Positions 38,964 to 53,677 of a stretch of 64,000 nucleotides of DNA are shown piece after piece. This stretch comes from Serratia sarumanii (GTDB taxonomy: Bacteria; Pseudomonadota; Gammaproteobacteria; Enterobacterales; Enterobacteriaceae), in NCBI RefSeq assembly GCF_029962605.1, contig NZ_CP124750.1, positions 3,720,001 to 3,784,000 on the forward strand. The letters are read 5' to 3'. Position 1 is the stretch's first letter. Each line of letters opens with the position of its first letter. The notes below the pieces were generated by a model. It was not told the DNA's origin, made no database searches, and saw nothing but the letters and a program-made list of their open reading frames with translations. The translations under genes and the position numbers were made by a program.

Positions 38964-39006
38964 AGTCACTAAGACCTAGTTACGAACAGGCTGAGGGAAG
39001 TGTCAA

Positions 39007-39304: not shown

Positions 39305-39346
39305 GTACTCTCCTCATCCCGCTTACGCTTCGGTCAAATGCTCCTA

Positions 39347-39498
39347 TGGGCCAGTCAATGTTACCAGTTCACCACATCTCCTACACCATAACTTTCGAGG
39401 TCAAATCTGCTTACTTAGACTTAGCGATTGAAAACGGAAAGCCTTGGCCTTTGTCATTAGCAGCAGAGCATGCGATAACATACCATCCAACACAATGA
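39347..39498 (+). CDS. Possible short ORF upstream of the NTPase gene
   Basis: The frame ATGGGCCAG... encodes about 50 aa ending TYHPTQ. It contains FEVKSAYLDLAIENGKPWPL. It ends 12 bp before the NTPase start and is AT-rich like it. No family is recognised and no good ribosome binding site is seen, so it may be a remnant or leader. Confidence 0.25.
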
Positions 39499-39510
39499 TG
39501 CAGACAAATC

Positions 39511-41391
39511 ATGCGGAACATACTTAATCGAGTTATGAGAAGAAAATCCTCCGACGAAGAGAGTGCTGTGAAAACATATTCAGGCCCAAACACGCCCCTA
39601 GCAAATTATCTAGCATACTATAGCAATCTCAAGTCTCCGGGTTACGCCGTTCTAATAACGGGACCATGGGGTGTTGGAAAAACTTATCAAGTAAAGCAAT
39701 TAATACCAGATTCTGAGAGTTACTTTGTTAGCCTGTACGGCATTGATACTGTAGATGGCATTCACGATGCGGTGCTTGCATCATGCTTGCCGAGCCTCAA
39801 TGCCAGCGAATATGTATCAACAATCGGAGAGGTAGGAAAGGCAATGGGCGATAAGTACGCTCTTGCTGGCTTCGCGAACAGTGTATGGAATGTTTTTCTA
39901 AGACAACGGTTAAAACCAGATCGGACGATTATTTTTGATGATTTAGAACGCAGCTCTTTATGGACAAATCAAAAGAGTGAATTACTGGGTGCAATTAATC
40001 ACTATGTAGAACATCGCGGCTTCCGCGTTATAGTTATTTGTCACGATGAGCGCATAGCTGATCAACTAGCCGAGCTTAAGGAAAAAACATTTGGCCATAC
40101 TGTTATGGTCGAACCACAAATTCATGCGGCTTTTGAAGCGTTTCTAACTGATATTCAAGATAAAGTTGCACAAGATTTTGTCACCAAAAGAAAATCAATT
40201 ATCGAGGAAGTTTGGTCGCAATCCGAGCAGTCTTCTTTGAGAATACTGAAACACGTTATCAACGATGTTGCTAGACTTCGTTTAATAATGAAAGACAGGC
40301 ATCTAGAAAATAAAGACGCTATAGAGCACATTATAAAATTTTTCTGCGCCTTGGATATAGAGGTGCGTGCGGGAAATTTAACACGAGATCTACTCCTTAA
40401 CCGGATGAAACTACATATCGCGGAGAGGATGGATCGCAACAATCAAGACGATATTCGGCCATTAAGTAAAGTAATTTCAAAATATTCATCATCTGATATT
40501 ACAGGCTCAATTCTCAGCGATGAAATTTTAGAGTCAACCCTCATAGAGGGTAGATTTGATTCTGAAATGCTTGCAGCATGGCTCGATCAAACACCTTATT
40601 TTATCCAAGCCTCAGATACCCCTCCGTGGCTCATAGTAATGAAATTCGATGAGCTCGATGATGAAATTATTAAAGAAGGCATATCTCGGATGCAAAAGCA
40701 GTTCGATGAGCGTGCCGTAACTGAAATCGGAGAGTTTCTTCACATCGCGGCACTTCGGCTAATGATGGTTGAACAGGGCGTTATTGCCCACTCTATGGAA
40801 GAAGAAACATCACTCTGCACCACGTATATTGACGACCTTTTAGCAACCAAAAGATTGCCTCCAAAACCTTTGGAATACTCATTTGAGAGGCTATTTGAGG
40901 CTTATGGTGGTTATGGTTATTGGGTTTCAGAGGTTGCGAGACCACATTTCAGGGCCATTTGTGAGCACGTAGACCAAGCGCGGCATCAAGCGCTAGAGGC
41001 CACTTATCCAAGTCATGCCGCAGAAATTTTGCGTCAACTCAAAGAAGATCAAGCGTCTATTTTTAAGACAATTTCACCAACAAACTCTGGAAGCAACACT
41101 CTCGCGCATGTTCCTATCCTCAATCATATACCTGTGAATTCTTTCTTGGACGCTTGGCTTAGCGGTCCGCGCAGTGGATGGCGACAAACAACTATGGCAC
41201 TCGACAATCGATATGAACATGGTCAACTCGATCGGAACTTGAGTACCGAAAGACCTTGGTTAATTGACCTAGAGCGGGAAATGAATGCGCGAATAGATAA
41301 GGAGACTGGTCTCGACGCATTTCGATTGAAGCGAATAAAGCCAAAAATATTTAGTGAGTTACAAGAAATAGAGGCACCAGATCAAAGATAG
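39511..41391 (+). CDS. KAP-type P-loop NTPase (cargo gene)
   Basis: 626-aa soluble protein. Walker A is GPWGVGKT (51-58), with GPWG typical of KAP ATPases. Walker B is IIFDDLERSS (140-149), with the FDDLER signature of that group. A sensor-like VICHDERIADQL follows, then a long alpha-helical C-terminal region of about 400 aa without a recognised domain. No membrane helices are evident, unlike many KAP proteins. The gene is far more AT-rich than the transfer genes, so it joined separately. KAP and related STAND-like NTPases recur in anti-phage loci, so a defence role is plausible but not shown. An ATG at 39535 is an alternative start. Confidence 0.82.
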   Translation: MRNILNRVMRRKSSDEESAVKTYSGPNTPLANYLAYYSNLKSPGYAVLITGPWGVGKTYQVKQLIPDSESYFVSLYGIDTVDGIHDAVLASCLPSLNASEYVSTIGEVGKAMGDKYALAGFANSVWNVFLRQRLKPDRTIIFDDLERSSLWTNQKSELLGAINHYVEHRGFRVIVICHDERIADQLAELKEKTFGHTVMVEPQIHAAFEAFLTDIQDKVAQDFVTKRKSIIEEVWSQSEQSSLRILKHVINDVARLRLIMKDRHLENKDAIEHIIKFFCALDIEVRAGNLTRDLLLNRMKLHIAERMDRNNQDDIRPLSKVISKYSSSDITGSILSDEILESTLIEGRFDSEMLAAWLDQTPYFIQASDTPPWLIVMKFDELDDEIIKEGISRMQKQFDERAVTEIGEFLHIAALRLMMVEQGVIAHSMEEETSLCTTYIDDLLATKRLPPKPLEYSFERLFEAYGGYGYWVSEVARPHFRAICEHVDQARHQALEATYPSHAAEILRQLKEDQASIFKTISPTNSGSNTLAHVPILNHIPVNSFLDAWLSGPRSGWRQTTMALDNRYEHGQLDRNLSTERPWLIDLEREMNARIDKETGLDAFRLKRIKPKIFSELQEIEAPDQR

Positions 41392-41485
41392 GGAAATATG
41401 GATTGCGCAATCCAAAAGCATCGTATGGTGGCAGGTGATCCCACCTCCACCATAGTTCTTGGACCTAAAAACCGAGAGCGCTAGA

Positions 41486-43393
41486 TCAAATTTCCACCCC
41501 TGCACTCTGACCATCTTTGCTGCCGCGACGGCGAGAAGTTTTCCTTGAGTCAGCCTTACCTGAATTCTCCATTTCCTTATGCTCGGCCGTCTCGCGGCGC
41601 ACCTGCTCCATCGCCGGATCGGTGAACGTGACCTTGAGGCCGTGCATACCGGCGAGTTGGGCGACTTCAAGCCGGAACTCGTCTGTGCCTTCCACGATGA
41701 GGGCTTGGCCCTCGAACCGCTTGGACGCCAGTTCGAGCGCAACCAGTGCCGCGCCGGTCGTGGCTTTCTGCGCCTGAACGTGCGTCTTCCGGTCGATCAC
41801 CATGCCGCCGTCGATGGTGCTGTACGCCACCGTCCCGTCTTTCCGGGCCTTGGGCTTGAGCTTGTCGAGAACGACAGCTTTGGCCTTGTCGGCCCGGTCG
41901 GCAGTCAGTAGCTCCCCGTTCCAGCGGCGTGTCCGTTCCTCGCGGTCGCGCAGCACGGCCAGCGCCTCGGAGTTGCCGCGCTCCGCCTGCTGCGTTAGCC
42001 AGTCGGCCCAAGTGGGCATCGTCGTCTGTTTGAACAGTGCCTGACGGCGAGCGTCTGCGCTCTGCCGGTTCTTCTGGCGCGAGGCGTCGGCCTGCTGTTT
42101 GATAGTGCCGTACATCAGGCGTTTGATCGACCCCTTGCCCGCGACCTTCAAAAGCATTCGCTCTGTCTGGCTCCACTGCCTCACTTGCGCATTGAAAGCC
42201 GCACTCTCGCGCTTGATCTGGTCGAGGCCCTGACGGCGGGCCAGAATGGCCGCCTGTCGCTCGCGCTGGTAGTGGTTGAACAGGCCCGCTGTCGTCGGGT
42301 TGTCCGGCCGCCGGGGTCGTGGCTCGTACCGCTTGCGGTTCGCCTTCGCCTCGGCCTGCCGTTCGGAAGGCTGGAACGGGCCAAGACGGTCGGTCAGGGC
42401 CTTCATGGAAAGGTCGCGACCGACGTTGCTGGCCTTCGCCCAAATGCCTAAATCCGGCTCGCCGATGACAAGGCCAGCGCCGCGCTGGCGAACCTCTAGG
42501 CCGTGCTCGGCCGCTGCGTCGTGCAGCTCCTGCCAGCTCGTCGCCTGCCGCATCGCCGGGGCCAGCTCGCGAGCCGCGTACCCGGTCAGAGTCTCGATGC
42601 CGGAGTGCGCCTCCACGCTGGCCACCTTCGCGCCGATGCGGACTGGCTCTGCTTTATCTGCTGACTGCTTCTGTAGACGGGTATCGGACAGCTTGCGCAA
42701 GCCGTTCAGGGTTTTGGCTTCGGGAGGCTCCGATATGCTGAGGTCGCAAGCGTTTCTAAGGTGTTTACGGAATAGGCTATCGCGCTGCTCTGGGGCTTTC
42801 GCTGGCAACAGCTCAATGTCGCGGTTTTGATGCCGCTGCTTTGCCTCCAGACCATGAAACGTTCTTTGCAAGCCATGCTCTACCTCAAGACGCTCACAGG
42901 CCTCCATCAGGCGGAACTGATCGTAATAGGGTTCGATGTTCTGTAAACCGGTCGGGTGAACCTTGTTGATGGCTACATGCACATGCAGGTTATCGGTGTC
43001 GATGTGAACCGCTGATACACGCTGGTGCTCATCAAGGCCGATGGCAGCGCATAGTTCGTCTTCGATGGCGTGCAGCGTCTCAAGGTCTGGCTGCTCGCCG
43101 GGCGGGAAGGAATAGACAAAGTGGTAGGTCTTTTCCGCCTTCGACCTGGTGTTAGCCGCTTGCGTGGCTTGGATTAAGATTGCAGCATCTGCCGGATCAT
43201 CCGTGCCGCAATTCGTGACCCGATAGCTGGCGACCTTCTCGCCCTCGGTCGTACCATTGGCGGAATCCAGAATGTAGTCGGCCGTGCGCTCCCAGCTCGT
43301 CGGGTCAATGCCGCCCTTGGCCGCCACCATATACTTGATTAACCGGGCTGGGCTTGAGGCCTTGCGTTCACGGTTGATGCGATGCGCGATCAT
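41486..43393 (-). CDS. traI: MOBP relaxase of the IncP TraI type
   Basis: 635-aa DNA nickase that cuts oriT and stays attached to the strand. The nicking tyrosine is Tyr21 in SSPARLIKYMVAA. Motif III, HIDTDNLHVHVAINKVHP, has the metal-binding His130, His137 and His139. The N-terminal domain follows RP4 TraI closely (RVTNCGTDDPA, KTYHFVYSFPPGEQPD), and a shorter, more diverged C-terminus follows (RP4 TraI is 732 aa). It overlaps traJ by four bases, so the two are cotranslated. No primase domain is present. Confidence 0.94.
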   Translation of the reverse strand: MIAHRINRERKASSPARLIKYMVAAKGGIDPTSWERTADYILDSANGTTEGEKVASYRVTNCGTDDPADAAILIQATQAANTRSKAEKTYHFVYSFPPGEQPDLETLHAIEDELCAAIGLDEHQRVSAVHIDTDNLHVHVAINKVHPTGLQNIEPYYDQFRLMEACERLEVEHGLQRTFHGLEAKQRHQNRDIELLPAKAPEQRDSLFRKHLRNACDLSISEPPEAKTLNGLRKLSDTRLQKQSADKAEPVRIGAKVASVEAHSGIETLTGYAARELAPAMRQATSWQELHDAAAEHGLEVRQRGAGLVIGEPDLGIWAKASNVGRDLSMKALTDRLGPFQPSERQAEAKANRKRYEPRPRRPDNPTTAGLFNHYQRERQAAILARRQGLDQIKRESAAFNAQVRQWSQTERMLLKVAGKGSIKRLMYGTIKQQADASRQKNRQSADARRQALFKQTTMPTWADWLTQQAERGNSEALAVLRDREERTRRWNGELLTADRADKAKAVVLDKLKPKARKDGTVAYSTIDGGMVIDRKTHVQAQKATTGAALVALELASKRFEGQALIVEGTDEFRLEVAQLAGMHGLKVTFTDPAMEQVRRETAEHKEMENSGKADSRKTSRRRGSKDGQSAGVEI

Positions 43394-43770
43394 TTGGAAA
43401 TCCTCCCCATGAGCGCCCGCATGTCCTCTTGGATTGCGCGGAAATCCATCATCATCGTTTCCACGTCAATCGGTCGAGTACCCTGACCGCGTTTCTCAGC
43501 GAGCCACAATTTCAGCAATCCGGCCACCCGGCCTAGGTCGCCATTCACTTTTGCCAACTGGCGGACAGCTTCCAAATCGGCCCGTGAACCTATAGGCAGA
43601 TTCAGCCCAACAGCGCGAAGGAAAGCGGCATTCGACAATCCCGCCTGATCGGCCCTTTCGGTTAACTCTTTTTTCTCATCAACGCTGACCCAAACCTCAA
43701 TTCGCTCCCGCCGTGGACGTGTCCCACGCGAATGCGGCTTGATAGCCTCAATCGCATTTTCACCGGCCAT
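43390..43770 (-). CDS. traJ: TraJ-type oriT-binding relaxosome protein
   Basis: 126-aa protein with a ribbon-helix-helix-like N-terminus (RERIEVWVSVDEKKELTERA) and the conserved VRQLAKVNGDLGRVAGLLKLWLAE segment shared with RP4 TraJ. TraJ binds an inverted repeat next to nic and recruits the relaxase. The ATG at 43770 follows GAGGGAAGG. The open frame extends 50 codons upstream through oriT but is not real. It is transcribed away from oriT, as in RP4. Confidence 0.92.
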   Translation of the reverse strand: MAGENAIEAIKPHSRGTRPRRERIEVWVSVDEKKELTERADQAGLSNAAFLRAVGLNLPIGSRADLEAVRQLAKVNGDLGRVAGLLKLWLAEKRGQGTRPIDVETMMMDFRAIQEDMRALMGRISK

Positions 43771-43805
43771 AAGCCTTCCCTCTTTGGTGTAAATGTCGCG
43801 GAGCG

Positions 43806-43912
43806 ACTGACAGCCTCGCAGAGCAAGATGCCGTCGAACCGCAGGTGAGTAAGGGGTGGTGTTGGACTGGTGCGGGCTTGCCCGTACCGGTACAACACAC
43901 ATCTTGCCGTAC
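43806..43912. other. oriT of IncP type, with predicted nic site
   Basis: This stretch resembles RK2/RP4 oriT in order and sequence. CAGCCTCGCAGAGCAAGATG (43811-43830) is followed by a CAGGTG..AATAAGGGG-like segment, an inverted repeat CGGGC-TT-GCCCG (43873-43884), the palindrome GTACCGGTAC (43884-43893) and CACATCTTGCC. By analogy with RP4 the nick lies after CATCTTG, between 43906 and 43907. The traJ start lies 36 bp to the left, as in RP4. Confidence 0.9.
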
Positions 43913-43965
43913 TGCTTCATGCGATTCTATGCGACTGGAGCAGAATCGCCAGTAAAATATGGCGC

Positions 43966-44064
43966 AATCGCGTACATTCGCGCTAATTCGCATACATTCG
44001 CGCAGCATCGCATTAATCAATTCTTCTAATCGCATAGAATCGCGTACATTCGCATAGAAACGCG
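43966..44064. repeat. Phased TCGCRTA/ATTCGC repeats beside oriT
   Basis: Near-repeats of TCGCGTACATTCGCG (43968-43982) and TTCGCATACATTCGCG (43987-44002) follow one another. TCGCATAGAATCGCG and TACATTCGCATAGAAACGCG come at 44030-44064. The spacing is about 10 or 20 bp, so they lie on one face of the helix. In RP4 the same position is a bent region bound by TraK. Confidence 0.7.
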
Positions 44065-44244
44065 TTTCCGACTGAGTTCATGAACATCAAGGACGGACTG
44101 ACACCAAAAGGAAGGGTTTTGAGAGGCCATCTGCTAGGCCACCCAAATCTAAGCCTTGTAAATTGCTCGACTCGGGTGAGAACATAGCCTCCGTTTACGC
44201 GCTTTTTTTTCGAAACTCGATCATCAAGAAACAATGGAGTAATC

Positions 44245-44454
44245 ATGGCACGAAAAACCCTCGCAGAGCGCCGTTCTGATGCCCTTTCGGAGCTTGAAAT
44301 GGCGAAAGCCAGATTGGCAAAACTCGACAATGAGGCGGCAGAAAGAATCGGAAGAATTGCAATAAAGTCAGGATTGGTTAATCTTGAGCTGACGGACGAT
44401 CAAGTCCGGGAAGAGTTCGACAAAATCGTGGAAAGGATCAGCAAGGGGAATTGA
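44245..44454 (+). CDS. TraC/MobC-like accessory mobilization protein
   Basis: 69-aa helical protein. The core EAAERIGRIAIKSGLVNLEL and the TDDQVREEFDKIVERI tail resemble the small TraC-like proteins of Ti-plasmid transfer regions and other MOBP/MOBQ accessory proteins. It probably binds DNA at oriT or stabilises the relaxosome. It is divergent from traJ, in the place occupied by traK in RP4. GGAG lies 7 bp before the ATG. Confidence 0.65.
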   Translation: MARKTLAERRSDALSELEMAKARLAKLDNEAAERIGRIAIKSGLVNLELTDDQVREEFDKIVERISKGN

Positions 44455-44456
44455 TC

Positions 44457-44681
44457 ATGAAGACAGCTCACCGCATCAGCACATTGGCCAATCAACTCAA
44501 CGAACTGCAAGCCTGCCTTGGTCGAGCCAGTGGGCGGCCTAGCAAGAGCGTTATGGAAGCCCAGCGCATTGCGGCCGAGCTGGCTTCTTCACTCGAAGAG
44601 TGGCACCTTGAAACGCTGCACATCCCCGAAACGGAGCGTGACCTCTATCGCGCACAGAACCCCTACTACGCGGCCCACTAA
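44457..44681 (+). CDS. Hypothetical small transfer-region protein
   Basis: 74-aa protein (MKTAHRISTLANQLNELQAC...) predicted to be mostly helical, with a GRPSKSVMEAQRIAAEL stretch. No family is recognised. It begins 2 bp after the preceding stop, with AAGGGG upstream, so it is in the same operon as the TraC-like gene. An intrinsic terminator follows 20 bp after the stop. Confidence 0.6.
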   Translation: MKTAHRISTLANQLNELQACLGRASGRPSKSVMEAQRIAAELASSLEEWHLETLHIPETERDLYRAQNPYYAAH

Positions 44682-44700
44682 CGCGCCACGCCGTCTTATC

Positions 44701-44727
44701 AAAAGCTCACTTCGGTGGGCTTTTTTT
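44701..44727 (+). terminator. Intrinsic terminator (start of left twin module)
   Basis: Stem AGCTCAC-TTCG-GTGGGCT followed by T7, with a UUCG tetraloop. Its counterpart is at 50528-50550 on the other strand. Confidence 0.9.
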
Positions 44728-44949
44728 GTCCGCAAAACGTATCAAACCGGACAGTCGCGTCTCTTCGCCACCCCAAGAAAATCCCGTTTCAAATCAGAAT
44801 ATTGGGAACTGCCTTCATCAAGATTGACGGACAGTTTACGGACACAAGCCATTGAATTCTATGCAGATACAAGATTATCCGCATATTTAAAACCGCCCCA
44901 TATCGGTCAATAATCAAACCTCGGATGATGACAAAATGAGGTATTCGGT
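44728..44949 (+). promoter_or_regulatory. Left copy of the twin operator-leader module, driving trbJ
   Basis: With the terminator this forms a ~250-bp block that recurs in inverted, diverged form at 50297-50550. Matching parts, in order, are GTCCGCAAAACGTAT, ATCAAGATTG, TTTACGGACAC, and a 42-bp leader (44908-44949) with GATGACAAAATGAGGTATTC just before the start codon. TTGACGGACAGTTTACGGAC (44824-44843) looks like a paired operator. A TTGAAT/TTATCC pair with 17-bp spacing (from about 44851) could be the promoter. Confidence 0.75.
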
Positions 44950-45744
44950 ATGGTAATAGAATCGAAAAAAATGGCGGCTGGTACTGTCCGAAAATTCGGT
45001 CGAGGCGCGGCGGTAGCTCTGGCAATGGCAAGCGCAGGCCTTGGTGTAAGTCTCTACATTGCACCTGTCCCGGCTTACGCCATCTACTGCTCGAACTGCT
45101 CGACGTTCTATCAGCAGATGTTCGAGTACGCCGAAGCGGTCAACACGCAGCTGAACACCGCCCAGCAACTGGCAACGCAGATTCAGCAGTATCAGAACAT
45201 GGTTACGCAGGGTCTGAGCCTGCCCAACTCCATGTTCGGCAGCATCGCGGCCGACCTGCAAAGCGTGGTGAATATCTACACGAAGTCGCAGGCCTTGGGC
45301 CGCCAAATCCAGAACATGGATTCGCAGTTCAACACGCAGTTTCCGGGCTTCGAGTCCTACCTGAATCAAGCTGCGAACTCGGCAGCAGTACCGGCGCGGG
45401 ATCGTTATCAGAAGTGGTCAGAGCAGGGGCGCGACAACGTGAAAACGGCGATGGAAGCGGCGAACCTCAATACCGGCACTTTCGAGTCTGAGGACGCGCA
45501 GCTTGCCCGCATGGTTTCCCGTTCGCAGTCGGCCGCTGGCCGGATGCAGGCGATTCAGGCGGGCAATGAAATTGCCTCACAGAACGTACAGCAACTGCAA
45601 AAGCTGCGCGATCTGGTGGCCACGCAAATCAACATGCAGGGCAACTACATGGCCCAGCAAGGTGACCGGAGGGCCGCTAGCGAAGCCGCCGAACAACAAT
45701 TCGAAGCTCGGAAGAATAACTGGGGACCTTCGGAGGACTTCTAA
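44950..45744 (+). CDS. trbJ: TrbJ, VirB5-like mating-pair protein
   Basis: 264-aa secreted protein. A Sec signal (about 18-44, ending AYA) is followed by the TrbJ hallmark IYCSNCSTFYQQMFEYAEAV and a long helical Gln-rich body. It ends in FEARKNNWGPSEDF, a 14-residue tail shared exactly with the next small protein. TrbJ belongs with VirB5 minor pilins that sit at the tip or base of P-type pili and affect recipient contact. It opens the four-gene trbJ-trbL operon. Confidence 0.92.
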   Translation: MVIESKKMAAGTVRKFGRGAAVALAMASAGLGVSLYIAPVPAYAIYCSNCSTFYQQMFEYAEAVNTQLNTAQQLATQIQQYQNMVTQGLSLPNSMFGSIAADLQSVVNIYTKSQALGRQIQNMDSQFNTQFPGFESYLNQAANSAAVPARDRYQKWSEQGRDNVKTAMEAANLNTGTFESEDAQLARMVSRSQSAAGRMQAIQAGNEIASQNVQQLQKLRDLVATQINMQGNYMAQQGDRRAASEAAEQQFEARKNNWGPSEDF

Positions 45745-45746
45745 TC

Positions 45747-45932
45747 ATGTTGATATCTAAGACTTTTATCGCTGTGCTGTGCATCGCTTCTGCTCTTGGT
45801 GGTGCTGTTGTGTCCGGTGTCTTTGTTTCCGTCAGCACCAATTGCGCGACTGCTGAACGGCCTATGCCGACAGATGCCGATAAAAACTTCGAAGCCCGGA
45901 AAAACAACTGGGGTCCATCTGAGGATTTCTAA
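45747..45932 (+). CDS. Small membrane/periplasmic protein in the trbK position
   Basis: 61-aa protein with an N-terminal hydrophobic segment (TFIAVLCIASALGGAVVSGVF), a short linker and the tail FEARKNNWGPSEDF, identical to the TrbJ C-terminus. Position between trbJ and trbL matches trbK, the entry-exclusion gene of IncP plasmids, but no lipobox is seen and similarity to TrbK is weak. The trbJ stop lies 3 bp upstream and trbL begins 3 bp downstream. Confidence 0.7.
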   Translation: MLISKTFIAVLCIASALGGAVVSGVFVSVSTNCATAERPMPTDADKNFEARKNNWGPSEDF

Positions 45933-45934
45933 CT

Positions 45935-47554
45935 ATGCAACGTTCAGCACTACTCGCACTCATCGGTGCGGTGCTCTTGCTTTCGGCCGGCACTGCTGCG
46001 GCAGCAGGAGATATAACTCAAGGCAATGAAATGAATGGGCTTTTGCGGATGCTCTATGACGCCGCAAGTGAATGGTCACCACGACTACAGGGCTACGCAC
46101 TCACATTGCTGGCTTCCCTTGCACTAATCCAATTGGTGTGGACGTTCATGCCTTTAGTCATGAAACAAGCTGACTTCGGCGAAATCGTCGGCGAGTTGAT
46201 CCGCTTCTTCATGGCTATCGGCTTTTTCTACGCGATCATTGAGCATTCCGTTCCTTGGGCGACAGCCGTAGTAGACAGTTTTCGAGAAGCAGCGGGCACG
46301 GCTAGCGGTTTAGGCCGTGCGCTTCAGCCGGGCGATATGTTCGCGGTCGCCGTCGATTTCTCGCGCACCATCGTAGAGGGAATCTCAGTTTTCTCTCCGG
46401 GTAAAGCGGTCCTCATCGCGCTTGTTGGCTGTTTGGTTTTACTGTGCTTCGCCTTCATCGCGGCATTCATGTTTGTGACGCTTGTAGAGTCATACGTCAT
46501 CATCAACGCCTCCGTGCTGTTCTTCGGCTTTGGTGGTTCGCAATGGACACGCGACTTTGCAATTGCTCCGCTCCGCTTCGTTATCGCAGTAGGTGCCAAG
46601 CTGTTCGTCCTAACGTTGATCGTAGGAATTATCGTCACGTCGGCGAAGTCTTGGTTAGCAGCGTATACCAACGACGAAGCGTCTCTGATGACATTGGCGG
46701 GCTTGGCTCTGGTATGCGCATACCTGACTAAGACTATTCCCGAATTGATCGGCGGGATGATTAGCGGCACGTCGATGGGCGGTGGATCAGCCATTGGTGG
46801 CATGGCTGCTGCCGGTGCAGCCGGTGCGGCGGCGGCGATCGCAACCATCGCCACGGCCGGTGCCGCTGCTCCGGCTGCTACCGGTGCTCTTGGCGCGGCC
46901 GGGAGTGGTAGTGCAGCGGGGGCAGGTGCGGCGGGTGCCGGTGGGCTTGGCGGCGGCGGTCTGGCGGCCGCGATCAATTCCAGCTTTGCCGGTGGTAGTG
47001 CTCCCGCCGCAGCCGCATCAGGTGGCGGGGCGGCCTCTGGCATCGGCGCGAGCACTGGCGGTCAAGCGGCGGCCAAGGGCGCGTCGTCGGCAGGTGCCAG
47101 AGTGGGCGGCAGCGGCGCACCAAAAACGCCGGGCGCAGCGCCGCAGCAGCCTAACAGCGGCGTACAGCAGGCCGCCAAGCAGGCCGGGAAGTCCGCGCAG
47201 GTCAATGACGACAAAGACCAGCAAGCGACACCAAAAGGGGGAGTTGTCAGCTCCGGCAACGCACTTTCCCAAGCGGCCAACGGTGGCGCAAAGATGCTCG
47301 GCGTGATGGCCTCGATGGCAGTACCGGGCATGGAGAACGCGCACGGCTTGTCTCTTGGCGCGGGATCTGCGTCACCTGTTCCCGACGATACGAGTTCGGC
47401 CGCTCCAGCCAATGGAGCGGAATCTGCCGCGGAACCTACACAAGCGGAATCTAACGTCATCCGTCCGGCCTCGGACAACAGCTCTACTCCCGGCCACCTC
47501 GCCTCGCTCAACGTGCCGGGCATGACCTCGAATAACGACCAACCGGAGAAATAA
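45935..47554 (+). CDS. trbL: TrbL, VirB6-like inner-membrane pore protein
   Basis: 539-aa polytopic protein. A signal-like N-terminus (MQRSALLALIGAVLLLSAGTA) is followed by at least five membrane helices, including LQGYALTLLASLALIQLVWTF and LIALVGCLVLLCFAFIAAFM, up to about residue 290. A long Ala/Gly-rich C-terminal tail follows. TrbL/VirB6 proteins line the inner-membrane channel of P-type conjugation systems. Every other pore gene (trbB-I except J/K/L) is absent from the element. Confidence 0.92.
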   Translation: MQRSALLALIGAVLLLSAGTAAAAGDITQGNEMNGLLRMLYDAASEWSPRLQGYALTLLASLALIQLVWTFMPLVMKQADFGEIVGELIRFFMAIGFFYAIIEHSVPWATAVVDSFREAAGTASGLGRALQPGDMFAVAVDFSRTIVEGISVFSPGKAVLIALVGCLVLLCFAFIAAFMFVTLVESYVIINASVLFFGFGGSQWTRDFAIAPLRFVIAVGAKLFVLTLIVGIIVTSAKSWLAAYTNDEASLMTLAGLALVCAYLTKTIPELIGGMISGTSMGGGSAIGGMAAAGAAGAAAAIATIATAGAAAPAATGALGAAGSGSAAGAGAAGAGGLGGGGLAAAINSSFAGGSAPAAAASGGGAASGIGASTGGQAAAKGASSAGARVGGSGAPKTPGAAPQQPNSGVQQAAKQAGKSAQVNDDKDQQATPKGGVVSSGNALSQAANGGAKMLGVMASMAVPGMENAHGLSLGAGSASPVPDDTSSAAPANGAESAAEPTQAESNVIRPASDNSSTPGHLASLNVPGMTSNNDQPEK

Positions 47555-47556
47555 CC

Positions 47557-47877
47557 ATGATGGACATTCTGATGTTCGGTGGATTTGTAGTACTTGCCTC
47601 GACTTTCGCCATCGGCATGTGGGCGCTCGGCCGGTGGCTGCGTAGCAAGGGCTACGGACCACAGCTCGATAGGCTGGATCGCCAATACACGGCCTTGCAG
47701 CTTCGAGTAAGCCCGCTCGCCTTGTCGGCTTCCTACCGCATGTTTTCCGGGGCGCAGGCTCTGAATCGCCTACCTTTGCTGGGCAGCAAGAATAACGCCG
47801 CCTTGAACCAGCAAGTTTTGATGGCCATCCAAGCCGCGCAGGAAGCCCAGAGGCAAGAAAAGCGCGACAATCGCTGA
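47557..47877 (+). CDS. Hypothetical small membrane protein of the trb operon
   Basis: 106-aa protein with one N-terminal membrane helix (ILMFGGFVVLASTFAIGMWAL) and a basic, Gln-rich helical remainder. No family is recognised. It follows trbL after 2 bp and ends the operon; a terminator lies 22 bp further on. Position suggests a role in pore assembly or exclusion. Confidence 0.65.
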   Translation: MMDILMFGGFVVLASTFAIGMWALGRWLRSKGYGPQLDRLDRQYTALQLRVSPLALSASYRMFSGAQALNRLPLLGSKNNAALNQQVLMAIQAAQEAQRQEKRDNR

Positions 47878-47898
47878 TCGCTGGCCAGCCTCACAGAC

Positions 47899-47926
47899 AA
47901 CCCCGCCTAAGTGCGGGGTTTTGTTT
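47899..47926 (+). terminator. trb operon terminator
   Basis: ACCCCGC-CTAA-GTGCGGGGT hairpin followed by TTTGTTT. Confidence 0.85.
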
Positions 47927-48617
47927 GCCTGCCGCGCTCCCTCCGTCTATTACACACCGTGTAAGGCCCTGTGCTGCACTCTGAGCAATTTTCTGGGATA
48001 GGCGCACCAACCCCATCACTGCACCCTTAAAAAGCGTTTTTGGCGGCTCCTACGGCCTTCTGGTGGGGCGCGATGGGTCATTCGCCCCCAGGCCTTTCCT
48101 TTTGGTGTCTATTCAGATGCCGCAGACGGCACGATGCACCAGGTGCTCGAGGTGGTGTGTGTTCGACGGAGCGAACCGCCCTTCCTTTGGTGTCTAACGG
48201 CCGAAGGCGGACCAAGAGCAGCAAGCGATGAGCTGCGCCATCAAGGCGCGGCGCTAAATGCGTATGCTGGAGATTCTTAGAGAATCTTGGATGGAATTTG
48301 CGAACGGCCCGCAAAGGCCCGCCGTTGCTGGGTTTTCAGAAACTGGCCGGGTACTGTTAAACAGGGGGTGAGGTGCCGTTAAACAGGGGGAGCAGCGTTA
48401 CGGTCGGATGCCTTGGGTCGCCCGATTTCCCATTTGCCCTTAGCGTACTCGTCCAGCCTCCAACCCACGGCAGCAAGCTCGGCCAGCGCCTTGGGGCGGA
48501 GCGAACGCCTTTCATGCGGGAGGGGAGCTGCCGCGAAGCGGTGGGAACCCCGCAGGGGGCCACGCTTTTGGATCGTGGCGCGATTTCGCAAGAATAGGAG
48601 TTCCGAACTAACGGGTG
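47927..48617. other. Non-coding region between the trb operon and oriV
   Basis: Nearly 700 bp without a convincing gene. It holds two direct copies of GTTAAACAGGGGG 22 bp apart (48356-48368, 48378-48390). It also holds a palindrome AGATTCT-N3-AGAATCT (48271-48287) and two copies of a CTTCCTTTGGTGTCT-like motif (48093-48110, 48181-48195), whose complement recurs at 44100-44116. A short minus frame (48379-48591, GWRLDEYAKGKWEIGRPK) might be a gene remnant. The stretch may be part of the replication or partition control region. Confidence 0.4.
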
Positions 48618-48850
48618 GGGGCCATCGACTTATGCACAGGCAAAAGGGTTTTAAACAGTTTTATATATAGTTTTAAAAGATTTAGCGTAAAAAGAAGGAA
48701 ATTTAATCTTTTAATTCAATGAATTACGCGCGACGCCGGTTCCTAATAGACGGATACCGGTTCCTAATAGACGGCGAAACGGTTCCTAATAGACGGTTTC
48801 AGGTTCCTAATAGACGCTTTATCCACAGCGTGGCGGGTTGTTCCCACTTT

Positions 48851-48872
48851 GTCCGCCAACTGTCCGTCAATC
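48851..48872. promoter_or_regulatory. Third copy of the GTCCG operator, beside oriV
   Basis: GTCCGCCAACTGTCCGTCAA plus two more bases match the complement of 44822-44843 at 20 of 22 positions. It lies between the iterons and a hairpin that ends the rep transcript. Confidence 0.6.
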
Positions 48873-48879
48873 AAAATGA

Positions 48880-48905
48880 AAAAAGCCCGCAACGGGGCTC
48901 TTTTG
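48880..48905. terminator. Hairpin terminating rep (bidirectional)
   Basis: AGCCC-GCAACG-GGGCT stem with A-rich left and T-rich right flanks, 20 bp past the rep stop. Confidence 0.7.
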
Positions 48906-48924
48906 CGATCTCACTCACCGTCTA

Positions 48925-49983
48925 TTAGGAACCGCCCAGCGGTTCCGACGAGGAATTGCGGTGCCTCATGACCAGTAGAGGGCCATCCTTCCCCGCTTCT
49001 TCGCACAAGGCATATTCAGGCAGGTCATCGGCTTTGATGATCCCGCGAAGGAAGAAACAGAATTTTTTGAACGAGCCACCGCTTCCGCTGCGTTCGTAAA
49101 GGGTCTTGAAAGCCCATTTAGCGCTATCCCTGCCTGCGGCACGGCGAGCCAGTCGGTAGATAAAGCGTCCTATGCCCGGCTCGATCAAAAAGTAGTCCCG
49201 ATGTACTGTAAGTACCTCCGGCCGCTTGCCCTCGGTGACTTCTCGATAAATCCACTCGGGGGCTTCAATCTCGACAGAACTTATCTTCTTGGTGTCCGTG
49301 CGTGACAGAACACGATAGCGCGCGATCAGCCCCTCGGCTTCGGTTGTCCGGAACTTGCCGCTTTCGCGCACTGTCTTGATGGTAGTACCCCGCAACCGAT
49401 CTAGCGCGGCTTCCACTCCTTGAACCTGACTACTACCGTTACCACGTCGGGCAAATCTGAGGATGTCGCTAACATGCAGCCGAAACACTCTCCCCGGCTT
49501 GCCACCCTTTCCTTCTCGATAGCGGTTCATAGCTTCGGTCAAGTGAGACACCATCATCAGCACAATGTCGTAGTCCCAAACGGAGGCCATTCCGTGCGCT
49601 CCTGCGGACACTTCCACGTATCCATCCGGCAGGTCGTAGCGGATCAGTTCTCCGGCTCGCTTGTCCTTCTTGGACAAACGGAACACGGCCACATCCATGA
49701 CGCTGCGATTGTCGCGGCCGCCCACGTCATAAAGGCTGGGCACAAAAAAATCTGGCTGGGCGTCGCCTTGTGGAGGCCTGCGGACAAGTGACAACGCTTT
49801 GTCCCGCTCTTTCGCCCTTTCCATCTGTTCATGCACGGTCGAGACGTTAGACGGTCTACCGCGTTCAGCAGCCGCAGTTCGGTCACTGTTCCGCTTCCTG
49901 ATATTTTCAAGGCGTTCCAGTAGCCCGCCAGAGTCGCCTATTACCGCGCCTATGGGCTTGAGACCGCTGTTTCGGCTACTCAT
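48925..49983 (-). CDS. repA: RPA-type plasmid replication initiator
   Basis: 352-aa initiator of the replication-protein-A family found on many beta- and gammaproteobacterial plasmids. Typical segments are DFFVPSLYDVGGRDNRSVMDVAVFRL split over residues 78-104, the HGMASVWDYDIVLMMVSHL motif and the C-terminal winged-helix part GIGRFIYRLARRAAG. It should bind the iterons and recruit DnaA/DnaB. It lies directly downstream of alpA on the same strand, and its last codons overlap the inverted fifth iteron. Confidence 0.87.
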   Translation of the reverse strand: MSSRNSGLKPIGAVIGDSGGLLERLENIRKRNSDRTAAAERGRPSNVSTVHEQMERAKERDKALSLVRRPPQGDAQPDFFVPSLYDVGGRDNRSVMDVAVFRLSKKDKRAGELIRYDLPDGYVEVSAGAHGMASVWDYDIVLMMVSHLTEAMNRYREGKGGKPGRVFRLHVSDILRFARRGNGSSQVQGVEAALDRLRGTTIKTVRESGKFRTTEAEGLIARYRVLSRTDTKKISSVEIEAPEWIYREVTEGKRPEVLTVHRDYFLIEPGIGRFIYRLARRAAGRDSAKWAFKTLYERSGSGGSFKKFCFFLRGIIKADDLPEYALCEEAGKDGPLLVMRHRNSSSEPLGGS

Positions 49984-50065
49984 GCGTGCGGCCCAACCGG
50001 TGCCCTATTAAGCCCAGTACAAGCGGTCTATTCGTAAATGTCGCCTGCAAGTCGGTCGCCACAAT

Positions 50066-50296
50066 TCAGGCGCCCATTCCGGGACGAGGGGCCGAGCCGG
50101 AATGTTTGCATGCATCAATCCATGCCTCGACCTCGGCTAAATCCCACACGACCTTGCGGCTACTAAGTGCGATGCGCTGAGGGAATTTCCCCTGCTTTTC
50201 GAAGTTGTAGATCGTGCGCTCGCACAGTGGAATCATCTCTAGCAGCTGCTTTTTGCTAATGAGAACTTTACGCGCGCTCCTTAATTCTCTTTCCAC
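50066..50296 (-). CDS. AlpA-family HTH regulator / candidate excisionase
   Basis: 76-aa MerR-like winged-helix protein: VLISKKQLLEMIPLCERTIYNFEKQGKFP, then VVWDLAEVEAWID. AlpA/Cox-type proteins act as recombination directionality factors or transcription activators of P4-like integrases. The start is a GTG at 50296, preceded by ATGAGGTATTCGGT, the same ribosome-binding context as trbJ. It heads the alpA-repA operon. Confidence 0.87.
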   Translation of the reverse strand: MERELRSARKVLISKKQLLEMIPLCERTIYNFEKQGKFPQRIALSSRKVVWDLAEVEAWIDACKHSGSAPRPGMGA

Positions 50297-50527
50297 ACCG
50301 AATACCTCATTTTGTCATCGTCTGAGGTTCAATTATTGCTACACAATGCCGGTGATTTCCAGCATTTAATCCCATAATTTTTCAATTAAATCAATCACTT
50401 AGTGTCCGTAAATACACGGTTTGACGGACAATCTTGATAACGCAAACCGCTGTTTTTATTAGGTTATAAATAGGCGCTGAAAGCCAATTTATTGCGTCCG
50501 GAAATTCATACGTTTTACGGACAAAAA
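50297..50527 (-). promoter_or_regulatory. Right copy of the twin operator-leader module, driving alpA-repA
   Basis: Read on the minus strand it repeats the parts of the trbJ leader in the same order and nearly the same spacing: GTCCGTAAAACGTAT, ATCAAGATTG with TCCGTCAAACC, TTTACGGACAC, and the 42-bp block (50297-50338) ending GATGACAAAATGAGGTATTC. The distance from TTTACGGACAC to the 42-bp block is 63 bp here and 62 bp in the left copy. Confidence 0.75.
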
Positions 50528-50550
50528 AATGCCCACCGAAGTGGGCATTT
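50528..50550 (-). terminator. Integrase terminator (start of right twin module)
   Basis: TGCCCAC-TTCG-GTGGGCA stem with T7 on the minus strand, 32 bp past the integrase stop. Core sequence is shared with the hairpin at 44701-44727. Confidence 0.9.
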
Positions 50551-50581
50551 CGCTACAGAATGCAGGTCTCTAGGCTCCGAA

Positions 50582-51790
50582 TCAGTCCTTGAGGCGGGGC
50601 TTCCTGATTGTCCACTCGTCGATCATGTCCGCCCAATCCTGTAGCATCGCTCGGCGCTGATCGCGGTATTCGGCCTTGTTGTAGACGGCTCGCACGCCCT
50701 TCTGTTCGTGCGCGAGGCACTTCTCAATCCAGTCGGTGTTATAGCCCGCCTCATGCAGCAGCGTGCTAGCTGTGCGCCGCAAGTCGTGCGGTCCAAACTT
50801 GCCAAGTGACTGCCCTTCCTTCTGCGCCAGACGATAGGTCAGCGTGAGCACCTGATTGAGCGTAGCGCTGCTCATGGGTAAGTCAGAGTCATAGCGCGAT
50901 GGCAGAACGTACTCCGAACCGCCCGCGAACGTTTTCAGGGCGGTGAATATCTCCAGCACCTGCCTAGACAGAAACACCAAATGGGGATTTCGGCGCTTCA
51001 TCCGTTCCTTGGGGATTGTCCAGAGCGCATCGATGAAATTGATTTCGCTCCACGTTGCATTGGTCAGTTCGCTTTTGCGTACCATCGTGAGCAACAGCAG
51101 TTTGGCGGCCGCTCGAATGGAAGGTGTGGTGCCGATACGCTCCATATACTGGTACATCAACCCGATTTCCTCGGGCGTCAGTGCTCGGTCTCGCGGCTCG
51201 AACTTGGCGATAGTTGACGGGCGCACCAGATCGGCCGGGTTCTCAACCTTCTGACCGCGCTCGATGGCCCAACGAAAGACCAGCATCATAATCTCACGGC
51301 AAACTACCGCCGTTGATGGCCTACCTTGTTCCACAATGGCATCAGTCAGCGCCCGCAAATCCTCGTGGGTAATTTCTATGAGTTTCCGGTTGCCAAACTT
51401 CGGCTTTAGATCGCGCTCGTATGTTCCACGGCGCATGTTGCGGGTGGTTTCGCTCATTTGATAACCGCGCAACCACTTCTCGGCCCACGCGCCGAATGTC
51501 TCAGCATCCTTGACGCGTGCCTTGTCCCGTGCCTTCTCCTTGGCCGGTGACTTCCCTGCGGCGATCATCTTCTTGGCTTCGCCCAGCCGTTCGCGGGCTT
51601 CCGCTAGCGTGATCCCGCCGACACCGTAACGGCCGAAGGTGATGGTCTCCTGCCTGCCGTGGATCGAGTAGTTGTAGCGGAATGAAATCGAACCCGCAGG
51701 CGTGATGGCCACGTAGAGCCCGTCACGGTCATTCACTTTATAGAGCTTGTCCTTTGGCTTGAGGTTGCGCAGCTTGGTATCAGTCAGCAT
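50582..51790 (-). CDS. int: P4-type tyrosine integrase for the guaA site
   Basis: 402-aa recombinase. The N-terminal DUF4102 arm-binding domain begins MLTDTKLRNLKPKDKLYKVN. The catalytic residues are Arg238 (MVRKSEL), His335 and Arg338 (HDLRRTAST), His361 (LAHEQ) and Tyr370 (VRAVYNKAEY). The ATG at 51790 follows AGAGGAAA; an upstream extension lacks family similarity. It lies beside guaA and is transcribed away from it, as usual for integrases of genomic islands at this site. Confidence 0.94.
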   Translation of the reverse strand: MLTDTKLRNLKPKDKLYKVNDRDGLYVAITPAGSISFRYNYSIHGRQETITFGRYGVGGITLAEARERLGEAKKMIAAGKSPAKEKARDKARVKDAETFGAWAEKWLRGYQMSETTRNMRRGTYERDLKPKFGNRKLIEITHEDLRALTDAIVEQGRPSTAVVCREIMMLVFRWAIERGQKVENPADLVRPSTIAKFEPRDRALTPEEIGLMYQYMERIGTTPSIRAAAKLLLLTMVRKSELTNATWSEINFIDALWTIPKERMKRRNPHLVFLSRQVLEIFTALKTFAGGSEYVLPSRYDSDLPMSSATLNQVLTLTYRLAQKEGQSLGKFGPHDLRRTASTLLHEAGYNTDWIEKCLAHEQKGVRAVYNKAEYRDQRRAMLQDWADMIDEWTIRKPRLKD

Positions 51791-52098
51791 GGTCGGGTTG
51801 GGTTTCCTCTCAAAAATACCATGCTCAAAAAAGCCCCACAAATCCTCAAAAAACTTGTTTAAGGACAATGCGTTACCTAAATTCGATACCATGAACACCC
51901 CATCAGAGGCGGCATGGTATCGAGTGCCGAACATGGCATCAGGTTCAAATCGTACCATCTACCATGCCATAGAAACGGGGTGCTTGGCGATGCGTAAATT
52001 TGCCAGACAGTGCTACGCCAAGAACGAAAAAAGCCCGCAGTTACGCGGGCTTAGAGGTATTTTAATGCTCTTTGGTGCCGGTCTATGCCGGACGCCAG
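51791..52098. promoter_or_regulatory. Right-end integration region with ACCATG arm-site candidates
   Basis: About 310 bp with no gene. ACCATG-centred motifs occur at 51814-51829 (AAATACCATGCTCAAA), 51885-51896 (GATACCATGAAC), inverted at 51913-51921, and around 51932 and 51952-51970. Several follow one another at short spacing, as in integrase and excisionase arm regions. The int promoter must lie here. Confidence 0.5.
52026..52052 (-). terminator. Element-borne terminator downstream of guaA
   Basis: On the minus strand AAGCCCGCG-TAA-CTGCGGGCTTTTTT ends transcripts about 50 bp after the guaA stop. It replaces the terminator separated from guaA by the insertion (38936-38963). Confidence 0.85.
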
Positions 52099-52111
52099 AT
52101 CACTCCCACTC
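52099..52111. repeat. Right attachment core within guaA
   Basis: The 13 bp read GAGTGGGAGTGAT on the guaA strand: codons E-W-E, stop and one more base. Integration thus leaves GuaA unchanged. Confidence 0.9.
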
Positions 52112-53677
52112 GATCGTCGCCGGCGGCTTGCCGCTGATGTCGTACACCACGCGGGAGATGCCGTCCACTTCGTTGATGATGCGGTTGGAGACGCGGCCGA
52201 GGAAGTCATACGGCAGGTGCGCCCAGTGCGCGGTCATGAAGTCGATGGTTTCTACCGCACGCAGGGAGACCACCCAGTCGTATTTGCGGCCGTCGCCCAT
52301 CACGCCGACCGAACGCACCGGCAGGAACACGGTGAACGCCTGGCTGACTTTGTTGTACAGGTCGGCTTTGTGCAGCTCTTCGATGAAGATAGCGTCAGCG
52401 CGGCGCAGCAGATCGCAGTACTCTTTCTTCACTTCGCCCAGCACGCGCACGCCCAGACCCGGGCCCGGGAACGGGTGACGGAACAGCATGTCGTACGGCA
52501 GGCCCAGCTCCAGGCCGATCTTGCGCACTTCGTCTTTGAACAGCTCTTTCAGCGGCTCGACCAGGCCCAGCTTCATCTCTTTCGGCAGGCCGCCCACGTT
52601 GTGGTGCGATTTGATCACGTGCGCTTTGCCGGTGGCGGAAGCGGCGGATTCGATCACGTCCGGGTAGATGGTGCCCTGTGCCAGCCATTTCACCTGCTCT
52701 TGCTTGCAGGCTTCTTCGTCGAACACTTCAACGAACACGCGGCCGATGATCTTGCGCTTGGCTTCCGGCTCGTCCACGCCCGCCAGCGCGGTCAGGAAGC
52801 GGTTTTCCGCTTCGACGTGCACGATGTTCAGGCCGAAGTGGTCGCCGAACATTTCCATTACCTGCTTGGCTTCGTTCAGGCGCAGCAGGCCGTTGTCGAC
52901 GAACACGCAGGTCAGGCGTTTGCCGATGGCGCGGTGCAACAGCATCGCGGTGACGGAGGAGTCAACGCCGCCGGACAGGCCGAGGATCACGTGGTCTTCA
53001 CCCACCTGCTCGCGGATGCGCTCGACCGCATCTTCGATGATGGTGGCCGGGGTCCACAGGGCTTCACACTGGCAGATGTCCAGTACGAAGCGCTCCAGCA
53101 TGCGCTGGCCCTGGCGAGTGTGGGTCACTTCCGGGTGGAACTGCACGCCGTAGAAGCGTTTTTCTTCGTTGGCCATAATGGCGAACGGGCAGGTGTCGGT
53201 GCTGGCGACGGTCACGAAGTCGGACGGGATCGCGGTCACTTTGTCGCCGTGGCTCATCCACACGTCCAGCAGCGGTTTGCCGGCCGGGCTGATGGCGTCT
53301 TCGATGTCGCGCAGCAGCGCGCTCTCTTTGACGATTTCCACCTGCGCGTAGCCGAACTCGCGTTCGGTGGAACCCTGCACATGGCCACCCAGCTGCATCG
53401 CCATGGTCTGCATGCCGTAGCACACGCCCAGCACCGGCACACCGGCGTTGAACACATAGTCAGGGGCGCGCGGGCTGCCGGCTTCGGTGGTGCTTTCCGG
53501 GCCGCCGGAGAGGATGATGCCGCTTGGGTTGAATTCGCGGATCTGCTCTTCGCTAACGTCCCAGGCCCACAGTTCGCAGTAAACGCCGATTTCGCGCACG
53601 CGGCGGGCGACCAGTTGGGTGTATTGCGAACCGAAGTCCAGTATCAGGATGCGATGCTTATGGATATTTTGTGTCAT
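52100..53677 (-). CDS. guaA: GMP synthase GuaA
   Basis: 525-aa enzyme that aminates XMP to GMP with ATP and glutamine. The N-terminal class I glutaminase has the nucleophile Cys in GVCYGMQTM and His/Glu in FHPEVTHT. The ATP-pyrophosphatase P-loop is GLSGGVDSS, and the C-terminal dimerization domain ends PPATIEWE. The start [11 protein letters not shown] at 53677 is used. It is downstream of guaB in the guaBA operon, and its 3' end is the attachment site of the integrated element. Confidence 0.98.

Follow-up and report, generated by a model that had tools for sequence, protein, structure and literature searches.

We describe here a mobilizable element in the chromosome of Serratia sarumanii (contig NZ_CP124750.1, assembly GCF_029962605.1), located within a stretch of 64,000 nucleotides (forward-strand positions 3,720,001 to 3,784,000) that we refer to as the window and whose own numbering is used throughout. 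The element is 13.1 kb long (39004-52114), is inserted at the 3' end of guaA, and carries a short cassette of trbJ (virB5-like), a gene for a 61-amino-acid trbK-like protein, trbL (virB6-like), and a further small gene, orf106. The TrbJ and TrbK-like proteins end in the same 14 residues. Such tails differ between systems and match within them, pairs of VirB5 and EexN proteins being less regular in this respect. As far as our literature searches show, the matched tails and their linkage to the N-terminal part of TrbL are the new part of this description; no report of shared VirB5/Eex tails stood among the titles and abstract openings listed, a scope that did not extend to older subscription work (RP4 TrbK in 1996, R18 in 1991 and RP1 in 1994).

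Because the tails of TrbJ and TrbK agree with one another and vary along with the N-terminal part of TrbL, exclusion specificity is the likely purpose of the cassette. We propose, with a probability of roughly 0.6, that it derives from a P-type mating operon (mating-pair-formation type T, MPF_T) and acts as an exclusion-specificity module, which re-types the mating machine of a helper plasmid and brings its own matching exclusion protein. A first-pass annotation of this DNA, which saw a mobilizable element that alters a helper's mating apparatus, is partly supported: its interpretation was right in direction, and the kind of element had been described before.

The trbJ-trbK-trbL-orf106 cassette

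All four frames of the cassette are open and neighbouring genes are separated by gaps of two bases (Table 1). The window TrbJ retrieved no relative when compared with solved structures. The 61-amino-acid protein, encoded between trbJ/virB5 and trbL/virB6, has a hydrophobic N-terminal segment by our rule of position and hydrophobicity; no TrbK model is among its NCBIfam scan matches, no lipobox is visible, and the TrbK-like protein of plasmid pSN1216-29 (AP018710) finds no match in the window by tblastn (E ≤1e-3). The label 'trbK-like' is therefore based on the place of the gene and on the size, hydrophobic N-terminus and tail of its product. The TrbK/EexN exclusion proteins of incompatibility group P (IncP), pKPC_UVA01, IncN and IncW plasmids are likewise small, hydrophobic at the N-terminus and encoded between virB5 and virB6; the window protein differs from them in having no visible lipobox and no TrbK family match, and its exclusion role is putative. 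The product of orf106 has no family match, and the gene is kept behind trbL in sibling elements and in plasmids of the pSN1216-29 type.

The first-pass annotation listed a MOBP relaxase, traJ, oriT, trbJ, a small gene, trbL and a further membrane gene, and no other pore gene or coupling protein. Family matches and open frames confirm the genes, the oriT being probable from its position, and the stated absences are borne out by a tblastn comparison (E up to 1e-3) in which 32 of the 39 proteins annotated on pSN1216-29 were run against the whole window: it returned only RepA, an antitoxin-like stretch, TraJ, TraI, orf4, VirB6 and VirB5, and none of VirB2, VirB3, VirB4, VirB7, VirB8, VirB9, VirB10, VirB11 or the coupling protein. 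TrbJ, the TrbK-like protein and TrbL are the sole pore parts, and the element, with neither a complete mating pore nor a coupling protein, is not a self-transmissible integrative and conjugative element. The annotation had also pointed to the chromosome as a possible site of the remaining trb genes. Across the whole genome (5.19 Mb, 4 contigs) the only TrbL match is the window's own, and there is no CagE_TrbE_VirB match (the TrbE-type ATPase) and no TrbI, the search not including TrbB, TrbC, TrbD, TrbF, TrbG or TrbH; a conjugation system split over the chromosome was rejected on these grounds. One weak coupling-protein-like match (E 7.6e-4) lies on contig C2.

Matched tails of TrbJ and TrbK-like proteins

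TrbJ of the element ends in ..EQQFEARKNNWGPSEDF and the 61-amino-acid protein in ..DKNFEARKNNWGPSEDF. Their last 14 codons show seven silent differences and no amino-acid difference, with 6 of the 13 codons other than Met and Trp identical. The pSN1216-29 pair (..TGSNKGY / ..TGRDKGY) is of another tail type, and the pairs of sibling elements include ..FRSRENTRGPSEGF / ..FRSRPNTRGPSEGF and ..FWEGTDAPGPSKGF / ..FWEGKDEPGPSKGF among others. Pairs from IncP plasmids, of which PB5, pMBUI8 and one from E. coli were compared, read ..GSYRASPSKTW / ..GGFKPSEKKEW and ..GTYTKSPAQSW / ..GEFTKSPEKKW, and two rhizobial plasmids have ..RGGQTMEPRW / ..RGGQEMKPRW and ..EGQKMEPRW / ..EGQEMRPRW. The VirB5 and EexN proteins of one IncX3 and one IncN plasmid also match, close to their ends (..VDYKAAFEQQSYEMN / ..VDYKDAFKNVLGKDGS; ..GSDGGHNPAPLK / ..GKDNSHSVPKLN). 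The IncW pair of R7K matches weakly (..GNQGMPTIQ / ..QGDGMPKIR), over a short stretch that is not the one chosen by the best local alignment; the VirB5 of R7K is almost the same, tail included, as R388 TrwJ, whose structure is solved. No match was found in an IncX4 plasmid (L155), where the open reading frame (ORF) compared stands behind VirB6. Behind trbJ of Xenorhabdus bovienii (L036/L061) there are two TrbK-like genes in tandem. Each product has the TrbJ-type tail, one of them matching over 19 residues, and the TrbL frame that follows has just 157 amino acids.

The match was evaluated in 141 loci, 14 duplicates or cut copies having been removed beforehand; the TrbJ frame could be read in 136 and failed in five. 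TrbK was picked by position and hydrophobic N-terminus with the tail ignored, which yielded such an ORF in 93 of the 136 and none in 42, one further locus (L121) being dropped as spurious. Two flaws were kept in the set: a wrong ORF was taken as TrbK in L020, and a broken TrbJ frame gives L056 an unreal tail, which also enters the TrbL correlations below. When each TrbJ cluster at 70% identity was represented by a single locus (n = 23), own pairs reached a mean score of 48.0 against 17.3 for mismatched pairs, a mean attained in 0 of 20,000 shuffles; the own TrbK was the best partner in 20 clusters, and the best match lay flush with both C-termini in 15. At 50% clustering the own TrbK was best in 7 of 9 (1 of 20,000 shuffles) and at 90% in 28 of 55 (0 of 20,000), the latter proportion being low because close relatives have common tails. 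The loci without a TrbK by this rule include Tn4371-like and Rhodoferax-type systems, and also L061, where the rule overlooked both TrbK genes.

The nucleotide sequences of the tails are less alike than their products. Across 35 loci chosen for a visible match, the same codon is used at 154 of 291 identical residues other than Met and Trp in the last 14 positions (53%; chance codon identity was not computed), which argues that recent DNA copying is no general explanation of the tail match, and it may be one in L094 and L095. The tail types also separate elements from plasmids in our set: among 43 loci whose TrbJ reaches at least 40% identity, the last seven residues of the nine that bear type IV secretion system (T4SS) genes and of the 34 others have no type in common, which is what escape from helper exclusion would require.

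Covariation of the tail with TrbL

Between the window and a Bordetella genomosp. 2 locus (L037), TrbJ residues 40-240 are identical at 198 of 201 positions, while the tails agree at 9 of 16, TrbK at 26 of 60 and TrbL 25-60 at 10 of 36; further along TrbL the counts are 40/55 (61-115), 34/45 (116-160) and 111/130 (161-290). For a Stutzerimonas frequens locus (L042) the TrbJ core agrees at 167/201, the tail at 15/16, TrbK at 43/60 and TrbL 25-60 at 33/36. At the DNA level, identity with L037 is 94-98% in the trbJ core, begins to drop at about 45.6 kb, lies at 50-54% over 45.75-46.1 kb and has risen to 85% by 46.85 kb; a similar dip is seen against pSN1216-29.

Correlations with segments of TrbL were calculated for 41 distinct loci (45 of 49 were usable, L049, L061, L067 and L068 being left out). 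Given the TrbJ core, the partial correlation between the TrbJ and TrbK tails is 0.81, and that between the tail and TrbL is 0.56-0.62 in residues 1-60, 0.15-0.16 in 61-100 and 161-180, 0.50-0.54 in 121-160, and 0.24-0.49 in the other segments between 101 and 280. For TrbL 25-60 in the 24 loci nearest the window it is 0.66, a value reached in 0 of 2000 permutations and from which relatedness is not fully removed. In pairs whose TrbJ cores are at least 95% identical, identity in TrbL 25-60 is 0.54 when the tails differ (n = 7) and 0.98 when they are alike (n = 24). To judge from these alignments, changes of tail type go with the N-terminal part of TrbL rather than with the TrbJ core. The parts of TrbL whose sequence changes with the tail type include residues 25-60 (46007-46114) and 116-160 (46280-46414); from their hydrophobicity we would guess that both segments face the periplasm.

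A model for exclusion specificity

In the donor, TrbJ and TrbL of the element would replace VirB5 and VirB6 of the helper, a proposal that the first-pass annotation had made and that the sequence comparisons support as the most plausible. The TrbJ tail would be read by, or docked on, TrbL/VirB6, its probable partner. In the recipient, the membrane-anchored TrbK would display the same tail, and a machine whose TrbL fits that tail would be stopped. The element's tail, TrbK and N-terminal part of TrbL appear to form one matched type, unlike the types of related plasmids, so that a re-fitted helper machine should pass the helper's own TrbK and could enter cells already holding the helper, as the TraG of genomic island SGI1 does in escaping helper exclusion (PMC5389848). 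The element's TrbK would in turn exclude machines of the element's own type. The annotation's suggestion of an IncP-family helper, with improved transfer, altered recipient contact or blocked entry as possible purposes, is thereby narrowed: the P-type assignment stands, the best plasmid matches are pSN1216-29-like, and exclusion specificity is the likely purpose.

It is also slightly better than an even chance that MPF_T exclusion in general works by such a self-tag, in which TrbK, or in some systems EexN, copies the C-terminal tail of its own VirB5 and the incoming machine stops on it. Tag, exclusion protein and VirB6 reader surface would then be exchanged as one module, and satellites at guaA would carry private versions with which to slip past exclusion and to impose it. 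The matched tails point to a stretch of about a dozen residues as the candidate determinant on the exclusion protein, and the mosaics to the N-terminal part of TrbL/VirB6 as a candidate reader in the donor. If the model is correct, many MPF_T plasmids could be assigned to exclusion groups by their sequence, and satellite elements that carry just VirB5, Eex and VirB6 would be explained; tail matching in many plasmids may likewise explain how cells refuse a second copy of a plasmid.

Several published results are relevant to these steps. The TrbK of pKPC_UVA01 is reported to need its C-terminal region for exclusion and to be dispensable for transfer, unlike trbJ and trbL, and according to the same account the TrbK of IncP has no known partner in the donor (PMC8923210). 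Among RP4 genes placed in recipients, trbJ and trbK were the only ones to give protection against the RP4 machine, a protection that neither R388 nor R6K gave (PMC11045733); the two tail-bearing proteins would thus be the two that mark a cell as 'own'. In the R388 machine VirB5 is described as mounted on VirB6 (PMC9259494), and loss of VirB6 is described as leading to loss of VirB5.

Other observations weigh against this model. The own TrbK is not the best partner in 3 of the 23 clusters (L108, L127 and L137), the match is short or off the ends in four more (L093, L102, L112 and L134), and the Bartonella T4SS loci L067 and L068 have no TrbK by our rule. TrbL segments 1-20, 181-200 and 241-280 correlate with the tail too (0.60, 0.49 and 0.44-0.46), and in the seven pairs with like cores and different tails TrbL 61-115 (0.55) and 116-160 (0.49) are as divergent as 25-60 (0.54). 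Because tail, TrbK and the start of trbL adjoin in the DNA, linked recombination alone could yield covariation, and the divergence of the whole of TrbL 25-160 in those pairs makes DNA linkage a real alternative for part of it. The pKPC_UVA01 TrbK is reported to be needed in the donor as well and to exclude both IncP and IncN plasmids (PMC8923210), which a strict tail code does not predict, and a 2017 review gives TrbK as the only RP4 exclusion protein (PMC5704250), in conflict with the protection by TrbJ (PMC11045733). The host genome itself contains no helper genes among those searched (TrbL, TrbE and TrbI).

The EexN-type loci also count against the model. We used 27 of 30 loci found with NF033894, leaving out the weakest (L179, L180 and L181) and without a permutation test on the set. 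Comparison of EexN with the upstream ORF gave five clear matches (L163, L164, L172, L177 and L178), four weak ones (L159-L162, of which L160 and L161 are alike) and 13 without a match; an upstream ORF of at least 150 amino acids, its identity as VirB5 unchecked, is present in 22 of the 27 and lacking in five. One clear pair ends ..SSGEPFELDW / ..SSGEPFELDLSSLKSEEDS. Four genomes whose TrbJ ends ..RRRFLG(D/T)GTPYTP.., a type that we take to be Tn4371-like, encode elsewhere an EexN-type protein with a similar segment, ..RKRFYGDGETPYTPPKESPKF about 7 kb off in G498, on the same contig in G1102 and G1082 and on another contig in G1036; these represent one motif and are thus no test of specificity. 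An EexN-type protein with a TrbJ-like RKRFYGDGETPYTPP segment is encoded elsewhere in the genome for L108 (L185), L132 (L184), L128 (L186) and L130 (L183), where the neighbour of TrbJ has no tail or none was found by the rule.

Two alternatives keep a function for the tail and assign it differently. The donor-side partner could be TrbJ itself, such as a neighbouring subunit of its pentamer, with TrbK jamming the VirB5 pilus tip rather than TrbL. VirB5 is described at the pilus tip, where it would contact the recipient first, and TrbJ alone protects recipients in one study (PMC11045733); nevertheless, we regard this as unlikely, since the TrbJ core is nearly unchanged between the window and L037 despite their different tails while TrbL 25-60 changes, and the pairs with near-identical cores divide in the same way. 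More doubtful is that a common factor reads the shared tail as a signal for assembly or export, or that TrbK is a donor-side place-holder of the TrbJ site on TrbL, exclusion being secondary. Many tails do end in an aromatic residue, and the donor requirement for TrbK in pKPC_UVA01 exclusion (PMC8923210) would suit a place-holder. However, a host factor would be expected to select for a single tail in each host, whereas Pseudomonas loci have at least three types (L038, L039 and L050), and the pKPC_UVA01 TrbK is not needed for transfer.

That the match is a functionless trace of a duplicated trbJ 3' end maintained by repeated gene conversion is very improbable. Codons as well as residues agree in L094 (9/9) and L095 (5/5), and the tandem TrbK copies in X. 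bovienii, one with its 19-residue match, would be in keeping with such a history, but many synonymous codons differ at equal residues in most of the 35 loci, subject to the same limit on chance identity, and the match recurs in IncP, Ti-like, IncN and IncX3 systems, whose TrbK/Eex proteins have N-termini that differ. We give the lowest probability of all to the view that the cassette is the decaying remainder of an element that was once conjugative. The siblings L049, L055, L056, L057 and L058, in which trbJ or trbL is broken or short, are what such decay would produce, and they count against the exclusion-specificity model as well; yet it is the same gene set, and not random leftovers, that recurs in many elements, and on five E. 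coli chromosomes the cassettes are 97.5% identical across the whole 2.9 kb.

Origin, distribution and relation to described islands

The best plasmid matches of the cassette are of the pSN1216-29 type (VirB5 80%, VirB6 61% and orf4 34% identity), pSN1216-29 being one of a group of plasmids described as captured and self-transmissible (PMC6232296). Its operon has the order B11-B2-B3-B4-B5-orf-B6-orf-B8-B9-B7-B10, and the cassette corresponds in order and homology to tivB5-orf-tivB6-orf, without the upstream B11/B2/B3/B4 and the downstream B8/B9/B7/B10. The relaxase, TraJ and RepA of this plasmid and its relatives are homologous as well; these plasmids differ from the element in their full operon and coupling protein, and in tail type.

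TrbJ matches are present in 23 of 392 genomes of the host family, including its own, and five strong ones besides that (58-81% identity) comprise L032-L035 and the plasmid-type locus L036. No other pore genes occur in the stretches read of L032-L035, that of L034 stopping shortly behind orf106. A collection of species genomes yielded 55 loci. The first-pass annotation had recommended collecting like elements. T4SS genes are near in nine of the 43 loci whose TrbJ has 40% identity or more, none of the six such genes tested is found in 26 (over flanks of at least 7 kb upstream and 2.5 kb downstream), and eight have shorter flanks. In the 34 loci of the last two groups, guaA lies nearby in 22 cases and a related integrase in 25. 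Complete E. coli genomes contain a cassette match in 77 of 5426 cases, at 65 chromosomal places and 15 on plasmids, and the four chromosomal places inspected all adjoin guaA. A related cassette with a different tail adjoins guaA in Brucella sp. 21LCYQ03 (L063). The E. coli siblings L096, L097, L103 and L104, at guaA, keep trbJ, the small ORF and trbL; their replication modules vary (RepA/RepC types or replication initiator A), as does their cargo, with tet(A) beside L097 and restriction-modification genes in L103.

The further claim of the first-pass annotation, that no system of this exact kind was described, is incorrect. The 2017 review (PMC5704250) presents GIsul2 and 'IncP islands' with TrbJ/TrbK/TrbL at guaA, and proposes by analogy with SGI1 that such islands remodel the helper's mating-pair-formation apparatus and invade helper-bearing cells. 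The IncP island of Burkholderia glumae and Brucella shares with our element the guaA site, tyrosine integrase, RepA, MobP relaxase and TraJ, and its pore parts are likewise only TrbJ, a 69-amino-acid TrbK-like protein and TrbL; it differs in cargo, and matched tails do not figure in the passages of its description that we compared (PMC5704250). GIsul2 is similarly a guaA island with TrbJ, TrbK, TrbL and proposed helper remodelling, but according to the review has no relaxase, whereas the window element has one (PMC5704250). SGI1 also carries substitutes for helper pore parts (PMC5389848), but these are the F-type TraN/TraH/TraG, at a trmE site and with no relaxase (PMC5704250); with its P-type TrbJ/TrbL at guaA the element is not of the SGI1 type. 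Because the features tested for membership are present, we assign it to the described IncP-island kind, the published elements having been compared by description.

Borders and gene content of the element

The element is flanked by imperfect repeats, and the flanks are joined in two of the three same-genus relatives compared, the third (L199) covering the guaA side only. In L201, bases 1-2160 correspond to window 36837-39019 and 2148-2799 to 52099-52750; in L200, 1851-2085 correspond to 38776-39022 and 2067-2701 to 52096-52730. Integrase, repeats and empty sites together indicate integration at the guaA 3' end via the tyrosine integrase. The element has its own MobP relaxase and TraJ (Table 1).

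Table 1. Features of the guaA element, in window coordinates
Feature	Coordinates	Strand	Evidence
Left attachment repeat	39004-39022	no strand	direct repeat of 52096-52114, 89%; empty site in L200 and L201
KAP-type P-loop nucleoside triphosphatase; cargo, candidate anti-phage defence (PDC-S49)	39511-41391	+	Pfam KAP_NTPase 7.8e-08; PADLOC PDC-S49 6.8e-141
traI, MOBP relaxase	41486-43393	-	NF041893 5.7e-156; 80% amino-acid identity with pSN1216-29 TraI (first 665 residues)
traJ/NikA-type relaxosome protein	43390-43770	-	Pfam NikA-like 4.1e-18; 62% amino-acid identity with pSN1216-29 TraJ
traJ-II RNA, ahead of traJ	43812-43909	-	Rfam RF01760, 67.5 bits
Repeat-rich traJ-traC intergenic region, probable origin of transfer (from position)	43921-44065	no strand	inverted repeats I11, I16; direct repeats D2, D5
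traC-like small gene	44245-44454	+	NF043004 1.2e-07, under model cut-off; 81-100% identity in L032-L034; two pieces (59%, 85%) in L035
Conserved ORF, 74 amino acids	44457-44681	+	85-97% identity in L032, L033, L034; no match in L035
trbJ (VirB5-like)	44950-45744	+	TIGR02780 2e-77; last 14 codons (45700-45741) are the tail FEARKNNWGPSEDF
trbK-like small membrane protein, 61 amino acids	45747-45932	+	last 14 codons (45888-45929) encode the same tail as TrbJ
trbL (VirB6-like)	45935-47554	+	TIGR02783 2.2e-71; Pfam TrbL 4.2e-27
orf106, small protein, 106 amino acids	47557-47877	+	34% identity (4.7e-13) with ORF behind tivB6 of pSN1216-29; no family match
Probable iterons, near replication gene	48737-48934	no strand	repeats GGTTCCTAATAGACG; D4, I7, I8, I12
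Replication initiator protein A	48925-49983	-	Pfam RPA 1.2e-64; 55% identity with pSN1216-29 RepA
AlpA-like regulator	50066-50296	-	Pfam Phage_AlpA 7.8e-13
Tyrosine integrase, adjoining guaA	50582-51958	-	Pfam Phage_integrase 3.6e-22
Right attachment repeat, guaA 3' end	52096-52114	no strand	imperfect 19-bp repeat with 39004-39022; empty sites in L200, L201

Two inverted copies of a 55-nucleotide sequence (87% identical) lie at 44908-44962 and 50284-50338, before trbJ and before the AlpA-like gene, and are accompanied by more shared repeats upstream. These copies and repeats suggest that the pore cassette and the integration and replication side of the element are under joint control.

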